From contig CAJQRP010000037.1 of the NCBI GenBank assembly GCA_905612365.1, positions 1-37,144 on the forward strand: a DNA stretch of 37,144 bases, in the 5' to 3' direction. A program made the position numbers and the translations under genes. Each line of letters begins with the position of its first letter. The stretch's first letter is position 1. The notes under the pieces were generated by a model. It did not search any database, was not told the origin of the DNA, and worked only from the letters and a program-made list of their open reading frames with translations. The DNA is from an uncultured Candidatus Pelagibacter sp. Lineage in GTDB: Bacteria > Pseudomonadota > Alphaproteobacteria > Pelagibacterales > Pelagibacteraceae. Shown here piece after piece: positions 5,507 through 18,042 of the stretch.

Positions 5507-7126
5507 TTACATATTTCCATATTTAGGTCCACCACCACCTTCAGGTGTTACCCAAGTAATATTTTGAGAAGGTTCTTTAATATCACAAGTTTTACAGTGA
5601 ATGCAATTTTGAGAATTTATGACAAATTTGTTAACATTGTTTTCAACTTGCACTTCATAAACACCAGCAGGACAATATCTTTGAGCCGGTTCATCAAATT
5701 TTTCTAAAGTATAATTAATTGGTAAATTTGGATCTTTAAGTTGTAGGTGCACTGGCTGATTTTCAGTATGGTTTGTGCCTGTTAAATAAACTGAGCTAGT
5801 TTTATCAAAAGTAATAACATTATCAGGTTTGGGATAATCAATTTTTGGCATTTCATTTGCTGGCTTTAAAGTTTCATGATCAGCATGCTTATGTTTGAGT
5901 GTTAAAGGTAATTTTCCTCTAAATAAAATTTGATCTATTCCTGTAAATATTATTCCAAGTATTAAACCCCAGCTAAAACTGGGTTTAACATTTCGTGCCT
6001 GATGAAGCTCTTTATAAACCCAACTTTTTTTAAACTTATCCTCATAAATTGATAACTCTTTATCTTCTTTTAAATTTTCAAAAATAGTTTCTGCTGCAAT
6101 CATTCCACTTTTCATTGCAGTGTGAGACCCTTTGATTTTAGGCATATTTAAAGTTCCAGCATCACAACCGATTAATAAAGCACCCGGCATAAACATTTTG
6201 GGTAGACTTTGAAGTCCACCTTCAATTAAAGCTCTTGCTCCATAAGAAATACGTTTTCCACCTTCAATTATCTTTTTAATTGCAGGATGAGTTTTAAATC
6301 TTTGAAATTCATCAAACGGTGAAAGATGTGGGTTTTTATAATCAAGACCAATTACATAACCTAAAAAAACTTGTTTGTTTTCTGCATGATAGATAAAACT
6401 TCCACCATAAGTATTATTATCAAGTGGCCAACCTGCAGTATGCATTACCATTCCTTTTTCATGATTTTGTTCATTAATTTCCCAAATTTCTTTAAATCCA
6501 ATTCCATATTGCTGAGGATCTTTACCTTCTGATAAATTATATTTTTCAATTAATTGTTTTCCAAGATGCCCCCTACATCCTTCTGCAAAAACAGTAACTT
6601 TTCCTAAAAGTTCTATGCCTGGTTCAAAGCCATCTTTTTTGTTTCCATCTTTATCAACTCCCATGTCTTGAGTTGCAACTCCCTTAACTGATCCATCTTC
6701 TTTATATAAAATTTCACTTGCAGGAAAGCCTGGAAATATCTCAACACCTAAGGCTTCAGCTTGTTCTGCTAACCATCTACATAGGTTTGCTAAACTGATT
6801 ATGTAATTATTATGATTTTGCTGAACAGAAGGTAGTAGCCATGTTGGCCAACTTAACGATTTTGTTTTACTTAAAAATAAGAATTTTTCTTTTAAAACCC
6901 TTGTTTTAACTGGTGTATTTAACTCTTTCCAGTTAGGAAATAATTCATCTAAAGCTCTAGTTTCAAACACGTTACCACTTAAAATATGGGCACCAATCTC
7001 TGGAGCTTTTTCAAGTAAACAAACATTTAATTCTGGATCTAATTGTTTAAGTTTTATAGCCGTAGACAGTCCTGATGGACCACCACCAACGATTACCACA
7101 TCATAATCCATTGCTTCTCTAGGCAT
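5507..7126 (-). CDS. Electron transfer flavoprotein-ubiquinone oxidoreductase
   Basis: ORF 539 aa; N-terminal FAD motif VVIVGGGPSGLSTAIKLKQ; C-terminal 4Fe-4S CPAGVYEV...NCIHCKTCDIKEPSQNITWVTPEGGGGPKYGNM typical of ETF-QO. Confidence 0.97.
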   Translation of the reverse strand: MPREAMDYDVVIVGGGPSGLSTAIKLKQLDPELNVCLLEKAPEIGAHILSGNVFETRALDELFPNWKELNTPVKTRVLKEKFLFLSKTKSLSWPTWLLPSVQQNHNNYIISLANLCRWLAEQAEALGVEIFPGFPASEILYKEDGSVKGVATQDMGVDKDGNKKDGFEPGIELLGKVTVFAEGCRGHLGKQLIEKYNLSEGKDPQQYGIGFKEIWEINEQNHEKGMVMHTAGWPLDNNTYGGSFIYHAENKQVFLGYVIGLDYKNPHLSPFDEFQRFKTHPAIKKIIEGGKRISYGARALIEGGLQSLPKMFMPGALLIGCDAGTLNMPKIKGSHTAMKSGMIAAETIFENLKEDKELSIYEDKFKKSWVYKELHQARNVKPSFSWGLILGIIFTGIDQILFRGKLPLTLKHKHADHETLKPANEMPKIDYPKPDNVITFDKTSSVYLTGTNHTENQPVHLQLKDPNLPINYTLEKFDEPAQRYCPAGVYEVQVENNVNKFVINSQNCIHCKTCDIKEPSQNITWVTPEGGGGPKYGNM

Positions 7127-7149: not shown

Positions 7150-8103
7150 TTATTTTTGTATACTATTTAATTTATTCAATTCTTCTAGGAATTGAGGTAA
7201 TGCCTCAAATAAATCAGCTTCTAGACCATAGTCTGCGACACTAAATATTGGAGCTTCACCATCTTTATTTATAGCAACAATTATTTTACTTTCTTTCATT
7301 CCAGCTAGATGCTGAATTGCCCCTGAAATTCCAACTGCAATATATAAATCAGGTACAACTACTTTACCTGTTTGACCGACTTGGTGTTCATTGCTTATAT
7401 ACCCTGCGTCAACTGCAGCACGTGATGCTCCAATTGCAGCATTTAATTTATCTGCAATATCAGCAATCAATTTAAAATTTTCTCCATTCTGCATTCCTCT
7501 ACCCCCTGAAATTACAATTCTAGCTGTTCCAAGTTCAGGTCTATCTGATTTAACTTCTTCTCTTTTAATAAATTTTGATAAAGTAAACTCTTCAGTTGCT
7601 TCAATTTTTTCTATTGGAGCAGATCCACCAGACGTTTCGCAAGGTTCAAAAGAAGTTGGTCTAATTGTTATGCATTTTTTAGTATCTATGCTTTTTACTG
7701 TAGCAAATGCATTTCCTGCATAAATAGGTCTTATGAATGTATCAGCTGATATCACTTTAGTAATGTCACTTACTTGAGATATATCTAAGTGTGCTGCTAT
7801 TCTTGGCATTAAGTTTTTACCAAATGTATTTGCAGAGCTAACAATATGAGAATAATTTTCTGAAACTTTTACAACTAATGGGGCAAAGTTTTCAGCTAAA
7901 TAGTTTTCATAATGGGCAGCTTCAGCATGCAACACTTTTTTAACAGCTGACATTTTAGATAATGCTTTAGCAACATCACCACAATTATTTCCAATTAATA
8001 AAACATGCACATCTCCATCCATTTGTGATGCTGCAGTAATTGCATTTAATGTAAAAGGTTTTACTTCTTTGTTATTATGTTCTGCTATTAATAAAACTGA
8101 CAT
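7150..8103 (-). CDS. etfA: Electron transfer flavoprotein alpha subunit
   Basis: ORF 317 aa; SGGRGMQNGENFKLI...VGQTGKVVVPDLYIAVGISGAIQHLAGMKESKIIVAINKDGEAPIF. Confidence 0.97.
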   Translation of the reverse strand: MSVLLIAEHNNKEVKPFTLNAITAASQMDGDVHVLLIGNNCGDVAKALSKMSAVKKVLHAEAAHYENYLAENFAPLVVKVSENYSHIVSSANTFGKNLMPRIAAHLDISQVSDITKVISADTFIRPIYAGNAFATVKSIDTKKCITIRPTSFEPCETSGGSAPIEKIEATEEFTLSKFIKREEVKSDRPELGTARIVISGGRGMQNGENFKLIADIADKLNAAIGASRAAVDAGYISNEHQVGQTGKVVVPDLYIAVGISGAIQHLAGMKESKIIVAINKDGEAPIFSVADYGLEADLFEALPQFLEELNKLNSIQK

Positions 8104-8852
8104 TATATTACCTTTGCCTCATTTTTAAGTTTGCTAACTAATTCAGCAACACTTGCAACTTTAATTCCTGCTTTTCTTTTTGGGGGCTCTTCTACTTTAA
8201 TTTGTTGAACTCTAGGTGTTATATCAACTCCTAGATCTGCGGCTGTAAATATCTCTATAGGTTTTTTTTTAGCTTTCATAATATTTGGTAAAGACGCATA
8301 TCTCGGTTCATTTAATCTTAAATCACATGTAACAATAGCTGGAAGATTAACTTCGATTGTTTCTAATCCTTCATCGATTTCTCTTGTTACTTCTAGAATT
8401 TTATCTTTTATTTCAATTTTTGATGCAAATGTTGCTTGAGGCCAATTTAATAAGGCACTTAACATTTGACCTGTCTGATTACAATCATCATCAATTGCTT
8501 GTTTACCCATAAACACTAGGTCTGGTTTTTCTTTATCAACAATTTTTTGAAGTGCTTTTGCTACAGCTAACGGCTCAACAGTTCCTTCAGTTTTGATTAA
8601 AATTCCTCTATCAGCACCCACTGCTAAAGCTTTTCTTACAGTTTCTTGTGATTTTTCTTCACCCACTGTAATTGCAATAATTTCTGTTGCTTTACCGGCT
8701 TCTTTAATTTTTACAGCTTCTTCAATTGCATTGTCATCAGGTGGGTTACTAGACATTTTAACATTATCTGTAACGACTCCAGTTCCATCCTCTTTAACCC
8801 TAACTTGAACATTGTAATCAATTACCCTTTTAACAGCGACTAATATTTTCAT
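8103..8852 (-). CDS. etfB: Electron transfer flavoprotein beta subunit
   Basis: ORF 249 aa; [20 protein letters not shown]...[31 protein letters not shown]. Confidence 0.97.
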
Positions 8853-11284
8853 TATGATCTCAATAAATTATTTTCAGGATCGTAAGGGCTTTCCTCTAAA
8901 ATAGTACAATCATACATTTTACCAAGAATATCAATTTTCAATTTTTGACCAGTTGTCGCGATATCAGGTTTTATCATTCCTAACGCAATAGATTTTCCTA
9001 ATCTAAAACCATAATCGCCACCTGTAGCTCTTCCTATTACTTTTCCATTTTCATAAATTGGATTATTACCTAAGACATCTGCATCTTCAACGTTATGAAT
9101 TTCCATTGTTACTAATTTATTTGAAAAACCTTTTTCTCTCCATTGATTAAGTGCGTCCAGACCAACAAAGTTTCCTTTATTAGGATGTATAAATCTATCT
9201 AACCCAGATTCGTATGGTGAATATTCAATTGATAATTCTGTTCCAACAAGTTTATAAGATTTTTCAAGTCTCAAACTATTCATTGCTCTAATTCCATAAG
9301 GCTTAATACCCAGGTCTTTTCCTGCTTCCATCAACTTATCAAATATATGATTTTGATATTCAATTGGATGATGAAGCTCCCAACCCAACTCACCAACAAA
9401 GTTTACTCTCATAGCATTCACAGGTGCATTTCCAACATTTACGTTTTTGGCACTTAACCATTTAAAGTTTTCTTTTGAGAAGTCATCTCTTGATACTCTT
9501 GTCATTAATTCTCTAGCTTTTGGACCAGACACAACAAGTACACCCATACTATTAGTTAAATTTTCAAATTGAACTGTCCCATCAGTTGGCATCCATTTTT
9601 GAATCCAGTCATGATCTAATCTTTGGTTGGCTCCTGCTGAAACTAAATAGAAACTATCTGGGGCTTCTCTCATTATTGTAAATTCAGAATGAACTCCTCC
9701 CTTAGTATTAAGGGCATGACATAAACCAATTCTTCCTATTTTTTTTGGAAGTTTATTTGCTACTAAATAATCTAAAAACTCTTCAGCACCAGGACCTTTA
9801 ATTCTACACTTTGCAAATGCAGTCATATCTAAAAGACCCACATTTTCTTTAACATTTTTACATTCTTTTTTTATTGCTTCAAACCACTTGGATCTTCTAA
9901 AAGACCAATCATCTTTTTGCTCCATTCCATCTGTTGCAAAGAAGTTTGGTCTCTCCCAGCCAAATTTTTGTCCAAATACAGCACCTAAATCCTTCATTCT
10001 GTCATAACAAGGTGATGTTCTTAATTCTCTAGCAGCACCTCTTTCTTCATCAGGATAATGAACTTTAAATACATGATTATAAGCTTCTTCATTCTTTTCT
10101 TTTAAGTATGATTTTGTTGCATAGTCACCAAATCTTCTTGGATCAACACCAAGCATATCAACCGTTGGTTCTCCATCAACTATCCATTCTGCAAGTTGCC
10201 ACCCCGCTCCACCTGCAGCAGTAATACCAAAACTATGTCCTTCATTAATCCAAAAATTTTTAAGTCCCCAAGCTGGACCAACAATAGGATTTCCATCTGG
10301 TGTGTAACAAATTGCACCATTATAAACTTTTTTAACGCCTACTTCTCCAAAGGCTGGAACTCGATGAATTGCACCTTCAATATGTGGAGCCAATCTATCT
10401 AAATCTTCTTGAAATAATTCATACTCAGAATCTTTTGATGGTCCATCAACATAACAAGCTGGGGCACCATCTTCATAGGGTCCTAAAATTAAACCACCTG
10501 CTTCTTCTCTCATGTACCATCTGCTATCACTATCTCTTAAAACTCCCATCTCTGGTAAGCCTTCTTTTTTTCTCTTTAAAATATCTGGGTGTGCTTCTGT
10601 AACAATATATTGATGCTCAACAGGTATAGCAGGAATATCTAAACCAACCATTTTTCCAGTTTGTCTTGCAAAGTTTCCTGAACAAGAAATTACATGTTCA
10701 CATTCAATAGATCCTTTGTCAGTTTCAACAACCCATCCATCTTTAGTTTGTTTAATTCCAACTACAGCTGTGTTTCTATAAATTTCTGCACCCATATTTC
10801 TTGCACCCGTAGCCATTGCTTGAGTTAAATCAGCAGGCTGAATATAACCATCTTCTGGGTGTTGGATTGCTCCAAGCAAATCATCTGTACGACATAGAGG
10901 CCAAATTTCTTTTACTTGATCTGGCGTTAAAAATTTTACATCAACGCCTATAGTTTGTGCAACACCTGCGTATTGATGATACTCATCCATTCGATCTTTA
11001 GTGCTTGCTAAACGAATATTTGACACAACACTGAAACCAACATTCTGTCCAGTCTCTTCTTCTAATTTTTTATAAAGATCAACTGCATACTTGTGAAGTT
11101 GCCCAACTGAATAACTCATATTGAATAATGGAAGCAGACCTGCTGCATGCCAAGTTGATCCTGAAGTTAATTCTTTTCTCTCGACAAGAACAACATCTGA
11201 TAAACCTTTTTTTGCTAAATGATAAAGAGCACTTACCCCTACTACACCACCACCAACTACTACAACTTTTGCTTTAGATTTCAT
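8852..11284 (-). CDS. Dimethylglycine/sarcosine dehydrogenase-type flavoprotein (DAO domain + C-terminal GcvT domain)
   Basis: ORF 810 aa; [46 protein letters not shown] plus C-terminal GcvT-like region; stop overlaps etfB start. Confidence 0.9.
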
Positions 11285-13068: not shown

Positions 13069-13838
13069 ATGGGTTTTCTTTTTTCTAAGAATGCAGATAT
13101 GCCTTCTTTAGCATCCATTGCCATCATATTTTGTGTCATCATTTTACTGGTATACGCATATGCTTTTCTTAGTGGCATCTCTAACTGTTTATAAAAAGTT
13201 TGCTTACCAATTTTAATTGTTAAATTAGATTTTGAAGCGATTTGTTTAGCTAATTTTAGAACCTCATTGTCTAATTTTAATTTAGAAAAATGGTCATTAA
13301 TTAAACCAATTTCTTTGGCATAATTTGCTTTAATAGGCTCACCAGTTAAGAGCATCTTCATTAATCTTTTTCTATTCACTTTTCGGCTAACTGCTACCAT
13401 CGGAGTGCTACAGAATAATCCTATATTTACTCCTGGTGTTGCAAATATTGCATCATTAGTACTGTAAGCTAAATCACAACTTGCAACCAATTGACACCCG
13501 GCAGCAAAAGCTGCTCCATGAACTTTAGCAATAACAGGTTTTTTGCCTTCAACTATTTGAAGCATTAATTTAGAACAAAGGTTAAATAGTTTTTGATATT
13601 TGGTTCTATTTTTTAAACCATTTACTTCTTTTAAATTGTGTCCAGCACTAAAACCTTTTCCTGCTCCCTCAATAATTATTACTTTTATGTTCTTGTCGTT
13701 ATCAAATTTTTTAAGAACTTTAATTAAATCATTAAGATTATTAAATGAAAGTGCGTTATATGTTTTAGGTTCATCGATAATTATTGAAGCTATTTCTTTG
13801 TCTAAAATTTTAATCTTAATATTACTCAAGCTTTCCAT
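13053..13838 (-). CDS. Enoyl-CoA hydratase/isomerase family protein
   Basis: ORF 261 aa; KVIIIEGAGKGFSAGHNLKEV and KPVIAKVHGAAFAAGCQLVASCDLAYS crotonase motifs. Confidence 0.93.
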   Translation of the reverse strand: MESLSNIKIKILDKEIASIIIDEPKTYNALSFNNLNDLIKVLKKFDNDKNIKVIIIEGAGKGFSAGHNLKEVNGLKNRTKYQKLFNLCSKLMLQIVEGKKPVIAKVHGAAFAAGCQLVASCDLAYSTNDAIFATPGVNIGLFCSTPMVAVSRKVNRKRLMKMLLTGEPIKANYAKEIGLINDHFSKLKLDNEVLKLAKQIASKSNLTIKIGKQTFYKQLEMPLRKAYAYTSKMMTQNMMAMDAKEGISAFLEKRKPIWKNK

Positions 13839-14196
13839 CTTCTCTCATTTTAGCTCTAATTTTTGTAGCTGATATTTGCTGTATCTCTTCAGATAATACT
13901 ACTTCTTCAATTTTATAACCAACACCTCTTCCATAACAAATGTTAGTAATATTTGGCACCATCATCACTTTAAATTGTCCTTCGAATTCTGGGTTTAACT
14001 TTTCTTCAATATTTTTTTTAACAGTCTCAAAATCAAATGGATTATCATCAACACCTTGAACATCTCTAATTTGAATACAAACTTGGCCTGTTTTTTTAAC
14101 TATTTCTTGAAATAAAGCATAATGACCATCATGAAATGGTTGCCATCTTCCTAACATTTGTGCTGTTGGTTTTTTATTATCCCATTCGTGAGCCAT
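13822..14196 (-). CDS. Mini nucleotidyl/adenylyltransferase-like protein (HxGH superfamily)
   Basis: ORF 124 aa; GRWQPFHDGHYALFQEIVKK (HxGH) and QQISATKIRAKMRE (ISxTxIR-like) motifs. Confidence 0.8.
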   Translation of the reverse strand: MAHEWDNKKPTAQMLGRWQPFHDGHYALFQEIVKKTGQVCIQIRDVQGVDDNPFDFETVKKNIEEKLNPEFEGQFKVMMVPNITNICYGRGVGYKIEEVVLSEEIQQISATKIRAKMREDGKLE

Positions 14197-14198
14197 AG

Positions 14199-14603
14199 TT
14201 ATATTTCCTTTGCTATTTTAGGAGCCCAATTTTCAGCATCCTGTGTTGTTACATGATAATCATATTTTTCTGGTTTTACAAACATAGCGTTAGTATCTGC
14301 AAATCTACCTTCTTTTATAGTATCAACCCAGACAACGTAGTCTGCATTAAATAATTCTCTTGCAGCAGGTGTTGGACAAACAAAATCTGCAACCACATGG
14401 TGGCCTGCTTGTTTATGTTTTTCTGCTTTTTCTGCCATTCTTTTGGCTTGTCTTTTTCTTCCTTCTTCTGAAAAATCCCAATCATCTGCAGCTTTTCTTA
14501 CTTCATCTGCATTAAGCCATTTCGCATTTATTAATGGAACTAATTTTGATGCTAGAGTTGTTTTGCCTGAACCAGGCAAACCCATAATTAATATTTTCTT
14601 CAT
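14199..14603 (-). CDS. APS-kinase-like P-loop kinase
   Basis: ORF 14199..14693; best start is internal Met at 14603 (MKKILIMGLPGSGKTTLASKL...NADEVRKAADDWDFSEEGRKRQAKRMAEKAEKHKQAGHHVVADFVCP). Confidence 0.82.
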   Translation of the reverse strand: MKKILIMGLPGSGKTTLASKLVPLINAKWLNADEVRKAADDWDFSEEGRKRQAKRMAEKAEKHKQAGHHVVADFVCPTPAARELFNADYVVWVDTIKEGRFADTNAMFVKPEKYDYHVTTQDAENWAPKIAKEI

Positions 14604-14665
14604 AGTGACTTTAACTTTCTGCACATATGGGTTAATAAAATTTAATATTATAGGAATTATTAAAA

Positions 14666-15862
14666 TTAATCTATTATATTTGTTGCTATCCACTTATGAA
14701 ATTGATGGGTTGGATTATCCATAACTGATGAGAAATTACCTCCATTATATGCTGGTGATGCTCTACCTGCCTGCATTTCCTCAATAGCAAAAATATCTTC
14801 TATCATAACTTCTTTCCAAAATTTTGAATTTTCTTTTCTCATTTCCTTAAAGTCATCACCATAAGCACTCTCTTCTCCAACATAATACATCTCTATATGT
14901 TCTTTAGTTTCATTAGTAGATATAGGCTCTAACCAAAAAATATAAAAGTGGTCTATGTGTAAACCAACCATAACATTTGGAAATAAAGCAACATACTCTG
15001 CATTTAAAGCTAGATCTTCTGACCAAGAAGGAAAGCTATTAAATTTTTTATTTCCCTTAATTGGTTGATTGTATTTATAGCTACCCTGTCCTGCAAATCT
15101 ATTTGGCAGCCCTTGTATATGGTAATGATCGCTTATATTTGACGTTTTATTTAACTCAGGATGAATAGTTGGTAAATGATAGCTCTCACAATAATTTTCA
15201 ATTGCAAATTTCCAGTTACTCTTAACATTTAGGTTAATGTAACCGTAATCCTTAGCGTGTCTTATTAGTTGTTGGTCATCTTTGGAGATAAATTTTGACC
15301 ACCTGGCCTCAAGTGGTTTGATATAATCATTAAATTCAATTTCATTATTGTTTAAATTGATAAAAATCATATCCATCCAAACCTTAGATCTGACTTCTTT
15401 TAAGTTGCTCTTGGATTTATCAAAGTTATCTACTTGATGAATATTTAAGCCACCTATGTGGGGGGTTGCAACTAAGGACCCTCTAAAATCATAAGACCAT
15501 GAATGATACGGGCATCTTAAGACATTCTTCAGGGTACAAGGTTCATTTAGGATCTTTAACCCTCTGTGACTACAGACATTATGAAAAACTCTAATTTTCT
15601 GGTCATTTCCTCTAATTATAATTAGAGGTATCCCCAAAAGCTCAAAAGGTTTAGCGTCTGCTATATCTGGAACAGAACTTCCAACGCCAATTACAGTCCA
15701 TTTATCTGAGAAAATCTTATCTCTTTCAATCTTGAGGTATTCACTGCTGGTATAACACTCGTTAGGGAGGCCATGAGCTTCCTCAATCGGTTTATCAACA
15801 GCCTCTATTTTTTTGAGGTCAAGGATTGCTGAGAGCAAAGAATTGTCATTTTTTTTACCCAT
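14666..15862 (-). CDS. Rieske non-heme iron oxygenase alpha subunit, glycine-betaine/carnitine monooxygenase-like
   Basis: ORF 14666..15898 begins with TTG; internal ATG starts at ~15862 (MGKKNDN) or ~15877. Rieske CSHRGLKILNEPCTLKNVLRCPYHSW; mononuclear Fe site ENYCESYHLPTIHPEL. Confidence 0.9.
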   Translation of the reverse strand: MGKKNDNSLLSAILDLKKIEAVDKPIEEAHGLPNECYTSSEYLKIERDKIFSDKWTVIGVGSSVPDIADAKPFELLGIPLIIIRGNDQKIRVFHNVCSHRGLKILNEPCTLKNVLRCPYHSWSYDFRGSLVATPHIGGLNIHQVDNFDKSKSNLKEVRSKVWMDMIFINLNNNEIEFNDYIKPLEARWSKFISKDDQQLIRHAKDYGYINLNVKSNWKFAIENYCESYHLPTIHPELNKTSNISDHYHIQGLPNRFAGQGSYKYNQPIKGNKKFNSFPSWSEDLALNAEYVALFPNVMVGLHIDHFYIFWLEPISTNETKEHIEMYYVGEESAYGDDFKEMRKENSKFWKEVMIEDIFAIEEMQAGRASPAYNGGNFSSVMDNPTHQFHKWIATNIID

Positions 15863-15962
15863 AAAAAATCCTAACATTGGGGAAACTTTTGACAACAAAT
15901 ATCTTTATCCACAAGATGAATTTCTTTGACAGCTTTTACAAAAAAGATAATGATCGGAAAAA

Positions 15963-16691
15963 ATGAACTTTTCACTTGAGGTAGGACCTCACACAGACCT
16001 AGATACTTTACCTCCCGTCAAGGATGTTTATATAACTATGCTTCCTGGTGGAGACTATAAAGAGACGGCTGAAAAAGCTGATGCTTTAGTAAAAAAAGGA
16101 TTTAATCCTGTTCCACATTTTCCAGCTAGATCAATTAATGATGAGGCTCAACTTAAAGATTACATTTCAAGGTGTAAAGATGTGGGTACAAAACAAGCTT
16201 TAGTAATTGGTGGTAGTAGAGATCCAATTGGAAAATTTGATAGCTCAATTCAAATTTTAGAGACCGGATTTTTTGATGGAATTAAAATAGGAATAGCAGG
16301 ACATCCAGAAGGAAGTCAGGATATGTCCGATACAAAATTAGAAAAAGCCATGATAGATAAAAAGCCTTACGCCGACTATATAGTGACCCAGTGGTTACTA
16401 GAGAGTCAACCTATCATAGATTTCATTTCTAAGCAGTCAGTACCAGTGCATGTAGGAATTACTGGGCCAATGAAAATAACTAGCTTAATAAAATTTGCTA
16501 ATATTGTCGGGGCGAAAAATTCCATTAATTTTCTTAAGTCTAATTTTAGTAAGGCATTAGATTTATTGAAACCTAAAGACCCTAATGAATTGATTGGGAA
16601 AGTGAAAGAGTTTACTGGCAACTTCCACATTTATACATTCGGCGGCTTGAAGGAAACTAACAAGTGGTTGAAGGAGAACGGTTATGTCTAA
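15963..16691 (+). CDS. Methylenetetrahydrofolate reductase (MetF)-like protein, short form
   Basis: ORF 242 aa; TIM-barrel MetF-like pattern (GFNPVPHFPARSINDEAQLKDYISRCKDVGTKQALVIGGSRDPIGKF...GIKIGIAGHPEGSQ...DYIVTQWLLES...VHVGITGP). Confidence 0.85.
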   Translation: MNFSLEVGPHTDLDTLPPVKDVYITMLPGGDYKETAEKADALVKKGFNPVPHFPARSINDEAQLKDYISRCKDVGTKQALVIGGSRDPIGKFDSSIQILETGFFDGIKIGIAGHPEGSQDMSDTKLEKAMIDKKPYADYIVTQWLLESQPIIDFISKQSVPVHVGITGPMKITSLIKFANIVGAKNSINFLKSNFSKALDLLKPKDPNELIGKVKEFTGNFHIYTFGGLKETNKWLKENGYV

Positions 16692-18042
16692 TGAATTTGA
16701 CTATACTAAACTAAATCATGCTACTTCAGTTGATCAATCAGATCGTGAAGTACCATATAACTTAAGACAGAGTGGGCCTACAAAAGTTGAAATGTTAATT
16801 TCAACAAGAGTAAGAAAATCTCCATACTGGCATCTATCAATGGAAGCTGGTTGTTGGAGAGCAACTGTTTACAATCGTATTTATCACCCAAGAGGTTATG
16901 TAAAACCTGAAGATGGTGGAGCGATGGTAGAATACGAAGCAATTAAAAATCACGTTACTATGTGGAACGTTGCTGTTGAAAGACAAATTAGAGTTAAAGG
17001 TCCTGATGCAGAAAAGTTTACAGACTACGTAATAACTAGAGATGCTACTAAAATCTCACCTATGAGAGCAAGATATGTAATTCTTTGTAATGCATATGGT
17101 GGAGTTTTAAATGATCCTATTCTTCTTAGAATTTCTAAAGATGAATTTTGGTTCTCATTATCAGACTCTGATATTGGTATGTATCTTCAAGGTGTTAATG
17201 CTGATGGAAGATTTGATTGTACTATTGAAGAGATTGATGTTTGTCCGGTACAAATTCAAGGACCTAAATCAAAAGCTTTAATGAAAGATCTTTGTGGAGA
17301 TCAAGTTGATTTCGACAATATGCCTTTCTATGGATTAGCTGAAGTTAAAGTTGGTGGAAGAAGTTGTGTAATTTCACAATCTGGTTTCTCGGGTGAAGCT
17401 GGTTATGAAATTTACTTAAGAGAAGCAACTAAATATGCTGATGATATGTGGAATGCTGTTCTTGAAGCTGGTAAAAAACATAGCTTAATGGTTATAGCTC
17501 CTGCTCACCATAGAAGAATTCAAGCTGGAATTCTTTCTTGGGGTCAAGATATGGATCATCAACACAATCCTTTTCAGTGTAACCTTGGTTACCAAGTTTC
17601 ATTAGCTGGTAAAGGTGAGTGGAATAAAAAAGCTGATTATGTTGGAAAAGCTGCATTAGAGAAAATGGGTGCTGAAATTAAGGATGGGAAAAAACCTTAT
17701 AAACTTCAACTAGTTGGACTTGAAATGGGTGGAAAACCAATTGAAGAATATGCTCCAGACTTCTGGTTAGTATCACCTGAGAATGGTGGTGATCCAGTTG
17801 GGTTTATTACTTCACCTTGGTATCATCCTGAAAAAGGTCAAAATATTGCGATGGGATATGTACCATTTGATGGAACATTAAATGCAAACGGATTCCCTAA
17901 AGGAAAAGCTGGAACTAAGTACAAAGTTCACTTACCTGCAGAATATTCTGACACCCCAGGAACGCCTGTTGATGCTGTGGTAGTAGATATGCCATTTACA
18001 GAATCTTATAACGCAAATACAAGAGAAGTCGTTAAAGGTTAA
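16684..18042 (+). CDS. GcvT-fold THF-dependent methyltransferase, LigM/DesA O-demethylase-like
   Basis: ORF 452 aa; GcvT-like VERQIRVKGPDAEKFTDYVITRD...QSGFSGEAGYEIYLRE; length and architecture like LigM; ATG overlaps metF-like stop by 8 bp. Confidence 0.8.
   Translation: MSNEFDYTKLNHATSVDQSDREVPYNLRQSGPTKVEMLISTRVRKSPYWHLSMEAGCWRATVYNRIYHPRGYVKPEDGGAMVEYEAIKNHVTMWNVAVERQIRVKGPDAEKFTDYVITRDATKISPMRARYVILCNAYGGVLNDPILLRISKDEFWFSLSDSDIGMYLQGVNADGRFDCTIEEIDVCPVQIQGPKSKALMKDLCGDQVDFDNMPFYGLAEVKVGGRSCVISQSGFSGEAGYEIYLREATKYADDMWNAVLEAGKKHSLMVIAPAHHRRIQAGILSWGQDMDHQHNPFQCNLGYQVSLAGKGEWNKKADYVGKAALEKMGAEIKDGKKPYKLQLVGLEMGGKPIEEYAPDFWLVSPENGGDPVGFITSPWYHPEKGQNIAMGYVPFDGTLNANGFPKGKAGTKYKVHLPAEYSDTPGTPVDAVVVDMPFTESYNANTREVVKG

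Follow-up and report, generated by a model that had tools for sequence, protein, structure and literature searches.

The locus analysed here raises the question of which compound gives up its methyl group to a pair of overlapping Pelagibacter genes, one encoding a short MetF-like protein and the other a 452-aa protein with the GcvT fold. SAR11 is the most abundant heterotroph in the sea, and glycine betaine, which is made by algae, is a major marine osmolyte and nutrient. An earlier note on this DNA had proposed that the pair forms a THF-dependent demethylase together with a MetF that recycles methyl-THF, and had left the substrate open. The stretch analysed, called the window hereafter, is a contig of 37,144 nt from a Pelagibacter assembly of 618 kb that is about 55% complete; AMT452 is used as a working name for the 452-aa protein.

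The pair was described in 2011 and is therefore not new. In Ca. Pelagibacter ubique HTCC1062, the type strain, the same gene pair is SAR11_1264 (metF) and SAR11_1265 (an aminomethyltransferase with no substrate assigned), for which it was speculated that the second methyl group of DMSP is removed, i.e. that methylmercaptopropionate (MMPA) is demethylated (Sun et al. 2011, PMC3160333). AMT452 is the ortholog of SAR11_1265, and the gene of the 242-aa MTHFR-like protein is, by position and description, the ortholog of SAR11_1264. In a study of sulfur limitation, the transcripts of both genes were about 5- to 10-fold lower than in the control exponential phase (PMC5069961). Our literature search found no further paper on SAR11_1265 and none assigning it a role in betaine metabolism.

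Gene structure and conservation of the pair

Both ORFs lie where the earlier note had placed them and have ATG starts, and the pair is divergent from a Rieske oxygenase gene located upstream on the minus strand (Table 1). The AMT452 gene begins with its ATG at 16684, a few bases before the TAA stop codon of metF (16689-16691), and the overlap was exactly 8 bp in all of the 78 SAR11 loci carrying both genes. Since the overlap is so constant and AMT452 is present in most Pelagibacter genomes, the arrangement is not a matter of chance. The overlap, which is kept in the related genomes, suggests translational coupling of the two genes, as had been proposed from this one sequence.

Table 1 Features of the gene pair and of its neighbours in the window
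Feature	Position	Strand	Basis
FixC-like FAD protein, probable ETF:quinone oxidoreductase partner	5507..7126	-	Same order in locus L146
Electron transfer flavoprotein (ETF) alpha-like subunit	7150..8103	-	Same order in locus L146
Electron transfer flavoprotein (ETF) beta-like subunit	8103..8852	-	Same order beside AMT452 in locus L146
Dimethylglycine dehydrogenase (DMGDH), 810 aa, FAD and GcvT domains	8852..11284	-	Match to 4p9s/5l46
Rieske oxygenase, divergent from metF	14666..15898	-	Match to carnitine monooxygenase 6y8j
MTHFR-like (metF) gene, 242 aa	15963..16691	+	ORF, ATG start; match to MTHFR 7xg9
Stop/start overlap, 8 bp	16684..16691	+	Direct sequence reading
AMT452 gene, 452-aa GcvT-fold protein of the DmdA branch	16684..18042	+	ORF, ATG start; Pfam GCV_T/GCV_T_C
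SoxA-type protein, heterotetrameric sarcosine oxidase alpha family, 998 aa	29102..32098	-	TIGR01372
Formate-THF ligase (fhs), 561 aa	33751..35436	+	49% identity to annotated haloarchaeal fhs over 98%

Family placement of AMT452 and its MTHFR-like partner

AMT452 contains the Pfam domains GCV_T and GCV_T_C, and it scored below the cut-offs of all four family models compared: 232 bits for DmdA (NF009133, cut-off 410), 151 bits for GcvT (NF001567, cut-off 300), 37 bits for LigM (NF047885, cut-off 580) and 42 bits for DesA (NF047633, cut-off 800). The orthologs from outside SAR11 all fell below the DmdA cut-off too. A tree of 58 rows was made by a quick method with SH-aLRT support; some of its branches are long. 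In this tree all 29 rows of AMT452, the haloarchaeal ones included, formed one clade with a support of 100, which is close to DmdA and to an unnamed DmdA-like group but separate from both; the only LigM-like reference, on a very long branch, was placed outside this clade. The AlphaFold model of AMT452 (mean pLDDT 87) was closest to DmdA 3tfh, which ranked first with a TM of 0.94 by target length and an rmsd of 2.2, and LigM followed at ranks 23 and below with a TM of about 0.6. The earlier note had called the protein LigM/GcvT-like, and LigM/DesA-like in size. The likeness to LigM/DesA holds for its length but not for its kinship, and the phylogeny that the note had asked for puts it in a clade of its own in the DmdA branch; on the scores, the separate clade and the structure, we rejected it as a LigM/DesA member.

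At the active site, the catalytic Asp of the GcvT motif DDL is replaced by Asn143 in all 28 AMT452 rows, as in DmdA, and the Asn-Asp-Pro stretch N143, D144 and P145 is conserved together with E242 and Y244 of the THF site. A Trp has been named as key for the interaction of DmdA with DMSP (PMC7487153); at its position, W197 in P. ubique numbering by our own mapping of that paper, 27 of the 28 AMT452 rows have Phe (Phe235). This position is a weak discriminator because DmdA itself varies there (four Trp, three Tyr and one Phe in eight rows). AMT452 is thus like DmdA (3tfh) in fold, in the Glu and Tyr of the THF site and in having Asn-Asp-Pro for the Asp-Asp of GcvT, but the two proteins are 26-30% identical, and AMT452 has about 80 more residues and carries a conserved extension at its N-terminus. 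Given its score below the cut-off, its own clade and the Phe in place of the DMSP-associated Trp, it was not accepted as a true DmdA.

An unnamed family of DmdA-like proteins, which share about 35-39% identity with AMT452 and fell below the DmdA cut-off where scored, occurs in many alphaproteobacteria (loci L131, L132, L134, L135, L137, L140 and L180-L184). One alphaproteobacterial genome, G312, carries several DmdA-like paralogs on contigs C38, C82, C83 and C84, some of them adjoining on one contig.

The 242-aa partner had no match in Pfam and scored 19-25 bits with the canonical MTHFR models TIGR00676/677, below their cut-offs of 294-310. Its residues 15-236 match the MTHFR of Sphingobium SYK-6 (7xg9, E 1e-32), the nearest solved relative, and a profile built with its orthologs gave an E-value of 2e-59 for the same structure. 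The SYK-6 enzyme reportedly works together with LigM (PMC12585457): the methyl group is passed to THF, and the MTHFR homolog then oxidises the resulting 5-CH3-THF. By analogy, the 242-aa protein is predicted to oxidise 5-methyl-THF, although in SYK-6 the demethylase comes from another branch and the MTHFR has 288 aa. The likeness to an enzyme serving LigM, and the linkage of MTHFR to AMT452 orthologs in other lineages and in haloarchaea, support the module of THF demethylase and methyl-THF-recycling MetF put forward previously.

Gene neighbourhoods and co-occurrence

The 810-aa protein of the window matches mammalian DMGDH (4p9s/5l46) over its full length with an E-value of 2e-197, and DMGDH was located 3-9 kb from AMT452 in 54 SAR11 loci. 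In the window, DMGDH is followed by the ETF beta subunit, the ETF alpha subunit and the FixC-like protein, in this order. The 998-aa SoxA-type protein scored 1300 bits with TIGR01372, above the cut-off of 1164, and may correspond to the N-methylglutamate dehydrogenase paralog described by Sun et al. An fhs homologue, which the earlier note had invoked for C1 oxidation, is likewise encoded in the window. Many Pelagibacter genomes encode a second BHMT-like protein at a distance of a few kb upstream of metF-AMT452 (L099:4775-5779, L087:4787-5791 and L063:4780-5784, all on the minus strand, and about 25 other SAR11 loci); it shares about 47-51% identity with the SAR11_1173-type BhmT and was not found in the window.

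Orthologs of AMT452 with 50-84% identity were present in 16 alphaproteobacterial genomes outside SAR11, where neighbours at high-GC loci were located by tblastn. A dimethylglycine-oxidising enzyme was encoded within about 10 kb of AMT452 in 10 of the 16 genomes, representing 6 of 12 families, for which a rough estimate of the probability by chance is 5e-8 to 1e-5; in the other six genomes AMT452 was not near DMGDH. Loci L147 and L160 show an operon-like run, soxB-soxD-soxA-soxG-DMGO-MTHFR-AMT452. Orthologs with 50-57% identity were also found on haloarchaeal megaplasmids, and Haloarcula hispanica has a plasmid-borne one; the haloarchaeal loci had an MTHFR gene nearby in 8 of 9 loci and a large FAD oxidoreductase in 7 of 9, and often also with glyA (SHMT), a Ser/Thr ammonia-lyase, fhs, folD or a BCCT transporter. 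At the H. marismortui locus, the single one tested, two FAD genes match Arthrobacter dimethylglycine oxidase (DMGO) with E-values of about 1e-175. The enzyme beside AMT452 is therefore either of the mitochondrial DMGDH type or of the Arthrobacter DMGO type, which are about 31% identical, and the finding of two such distant types in the same slot argues for a functional link rather than simple inheritance of the block from a common ancestor. Together, these neighbours make up a set leading from betaine to serine or pyruvate and to C1 oxidation, in which the first demethylation is the only step without an assigned gene.

Two further genes were noticed at the haloarchaeal loci. A creatininase-family gene lies near the AMT452 and FAD oxidoreductase genes in L144, L167, L168, L169 and L170, perhaps in connection with creatine-derived sarcosine, and a dihydrofolate reductase gene lies directly upstream of AMT452 in L142, L167, L169 and L170, which suggests a dedicated folate supply.

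We compared the occurrence of these genes in 296 Pelagibacteraceae genomes, by counts that ignore phylogeny and to which drafts add false absences. AMT452 and DMGDH were both present in 163 genomes and both absent from 103, with 10 having AMT452 alone and 20 DMGDH alone (Fisher p 2e-46); the corresponding numbers for AMT452 and DmdA were 142, 102, 31 and 21 (p 4e-30). AMT452 thus tracks DMGDH more tightly than DmdA. The genus of the Pelagibacter species (g1), in which 91 of 100 genomes have AMT452, gave p 1e-5 for AMT452 with DMGDH and p 1 for AMT452 with DmdA. All nine g1 genomes without AMT452 keep DmdA, and five of the nine also lack DMGDH, but part of this co-loss may be due to one deletion or assembly gap because the two genes are linked on the chromosome. 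In genus g4, where the association also holds (27 genomes with both, 5 and 6 with AMT452 or DMGDH alone, 64 with neither; p 4e-14), AMT452 and DMGDH are on different contigs in several draft genomes.

Known betaine demethylases carry out the net step proposed for AMT452, betaine to dimethylglycine, by other means: BHMT depends on homocysteine, GbcAB is an oxygenase and MtgB/MttB depend on a corrinoid, and these proteins are unrelated to AMT452. They were mostly absent from genomes with AMT452. No BHMT of any kind was detected in 109 of the 163 Pelagibacteraceae genomes having both AMT452 and DMGDH, the HTCC1062-type BhmT was present in only 5 of the 100 g1 genomes (e.g. G026:C1:1126234-1127292), and 12 of the 13 g4 genomes with BHMT lack AMT452. 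There are also 13 genomes, some incomplete, with DMGDH and neither AMT452 nor BHMT. Of 20 genomes searched, none had GbcA over the cut-off and two had MttB. Among the AMT452 genomes outside SAR11, one was near the GbcA cut-off but none exceeded it, and two had MttB; a stand-alone PF02574 protein was absent from four, of which G415 has no PF02574 protein and G371, G580 and G657 have only a MetH-sized one.

Glycine betaine as the probable methyl donor

From the neighbourhoods and the co-occurrence, which were observed here as were the gene structure, its conservation, the fold and the family placement, we infer the substrate, the reaction and the direction of the MTHFR. AMT452 is probably a cobalamin-free glycine betaine:THF methyltransferase whose product methyl-THF is oxidised by the MTHFR, a reading to which we give a probability of about 0.68; the substrate left open in the earlier note is thus predicted to be glycine betaine. 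AMT452 would transfer a methyl group from this onium donor to N5 of THF, in the manner of DmdA acting on DMSP, to yield dimethylglycine and 5-methyl-THF with neither cobalamin nor homocysteine. The coupled MTHFR-like protein would convert 5-methyl-THF to 5,10-methylene-THF, and FolD and Fhs would release the C1 unit as formate with a gain of ATP, to be oxidised to CO2 by formate dehydrogenase. Dimethylglycine would pass to the DMGDH encoded nearby, with electrons leaving via ETF and the ETF:quinone oxidoreductase-like protein, and sarcosine and then glycine would follow.

Several points agree with such a route. Glycine betaine fits DmdA-like chemistry because, as a carboxylate with a quaternary ammonium group, it resembles DMSP in shape, and Asn143 in place of the GcvT Asp, as in DmdA, agrees with an onium compound as the methyl donor. 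The proposed products also fit the neighbours, dimethylglycine being the substrate of DMGDH/DMGO and 5-methyl-THF that of the coupled MTHFR. In HTCC1062, methyl-14C betaine is oxidised to CO2 and the incorporation of label is negligible (PMC3160333), in line with a THF route. Against it stands the presence in HTCC1062 of the SAR11_1173-type BhmT, the published candidate; the HTCC1062 model gives betaine demethylation to BhmT and suggests SAR11_1303 for betaine (PMC3160333, PMC5069961), whereas the present evidence shifts the betaine role to SAR11_1265.

Somewhat more cautiously, we consider it rather probable that AMT452 represents a so far unrecognised family of betaine:THF methyltransferases within the GcvT superfamily, which work without cobalamin and occur in SAR11, in other Alphaproteobacteria and in haloarchaea. 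AMT452 would then be the main entry to betaine catabolism for most SAR11 cells, the majority of which would lack the BhmT route. A study from 2025 called the mechanism of betaine demethylation elusive and proposed that SAR11 uses BhmT alone (PMC12478193), against which stand the 5 g1 genomes with HTCC1062-type BhmT and the 91 with AMT452. If AMT452 is the demethylase, betaine would feed energy metabolism directly via THF without a tie to methionine synthesis, betaine use would be underestimated in surveys that rely on bhmT as the marker for SAR11, and the entry step, given to another enzyme in published SAR11 betaine models, would be B12-free.

It is unlikely that the substrate of AMT452 is instead some other onium or quaternary ammonium compound (choline, carnitine, proline betaine or a trimethylamine-type donor) feeding the same pathway, possibly in connection with the Rieske oxygenase. 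The Rieske protein is closest to carnitine monooxygenase 6y8j (E 3e-33), its gene stays adjacent to metF in most SAR11 loci, and BCCT transporters are not specific for betaine. However, no close homolog of the Rieske gene was seen beside AMT452 in the other lineages examined, one haloarchaeal AMT452 cluster having a 29% identical oxygenase, and it is from glycine betaine that the direct substrate of DMGDH comes. The Rieske protein resembles GbcA weakly and was rejected as a GbcA equivalog at 128 bits against a cut-off of 670; it may be an independent SAR11 oxygenase for quaternary amines.

That AMT452 takes off the second methyl group of DMSP by turning MMPA into mercaptopropionate, as speculated by Sun et al. 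(2011), we regard as very improbable. The closest relatives of AMT452 are DmdA and DmdA-like proteins, and the overall co-occurrence with DmdA in Pelagibacteraceae would agree with this function. But only 6 of the 16 AMT452 genomes from non-SAR11 alphaproteobacteria have DmdA over the cut-off and 10 are without it, AMT452 was lost independently of DmdA in the nine g1 genomes, and its neighbours, those in haloarchaea included, are dimethylglycine and sarcosine genes; MMPA demethylation was therefore rejected as first choice. A thioether such as MMPA is, moreover, a poorer methyl donor than an onium compound.

It is just as improbable that AMT452 is a stand-alone folate acceptor, taking the iminium or formaldehyde from DMGDH and sarcosine oxidase to give methylene-THF. 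Its GcvT fold and its linkage to these enzymes would suit such a function, but DMGDH and the sarcosine oxidases already have fused GcvT domains, AMT452 has Asn for the catalytic Asp of GcvT and sits in the DmdA branch, and methylene-THF as the product would leave the coupled MTHFR unexplained. A THF-dependent aryl O-demethylase of the LigM/DesA type, to which the similar length and the SYK-6 type of the partner MTHFR might point, is extremely improbable in view of the scores far below the LigM and DesA cut-offs, the TM values and the LigM-like row branching outside the clade.

Directly behind the Rieske gene, two short proteins resembling a nucleotidyltransferase (13822-14196) and an APS kinase (14199-14693) are encoded on the minus strand, and these two genes accompany the Rieske gene in many SAR11 loci.
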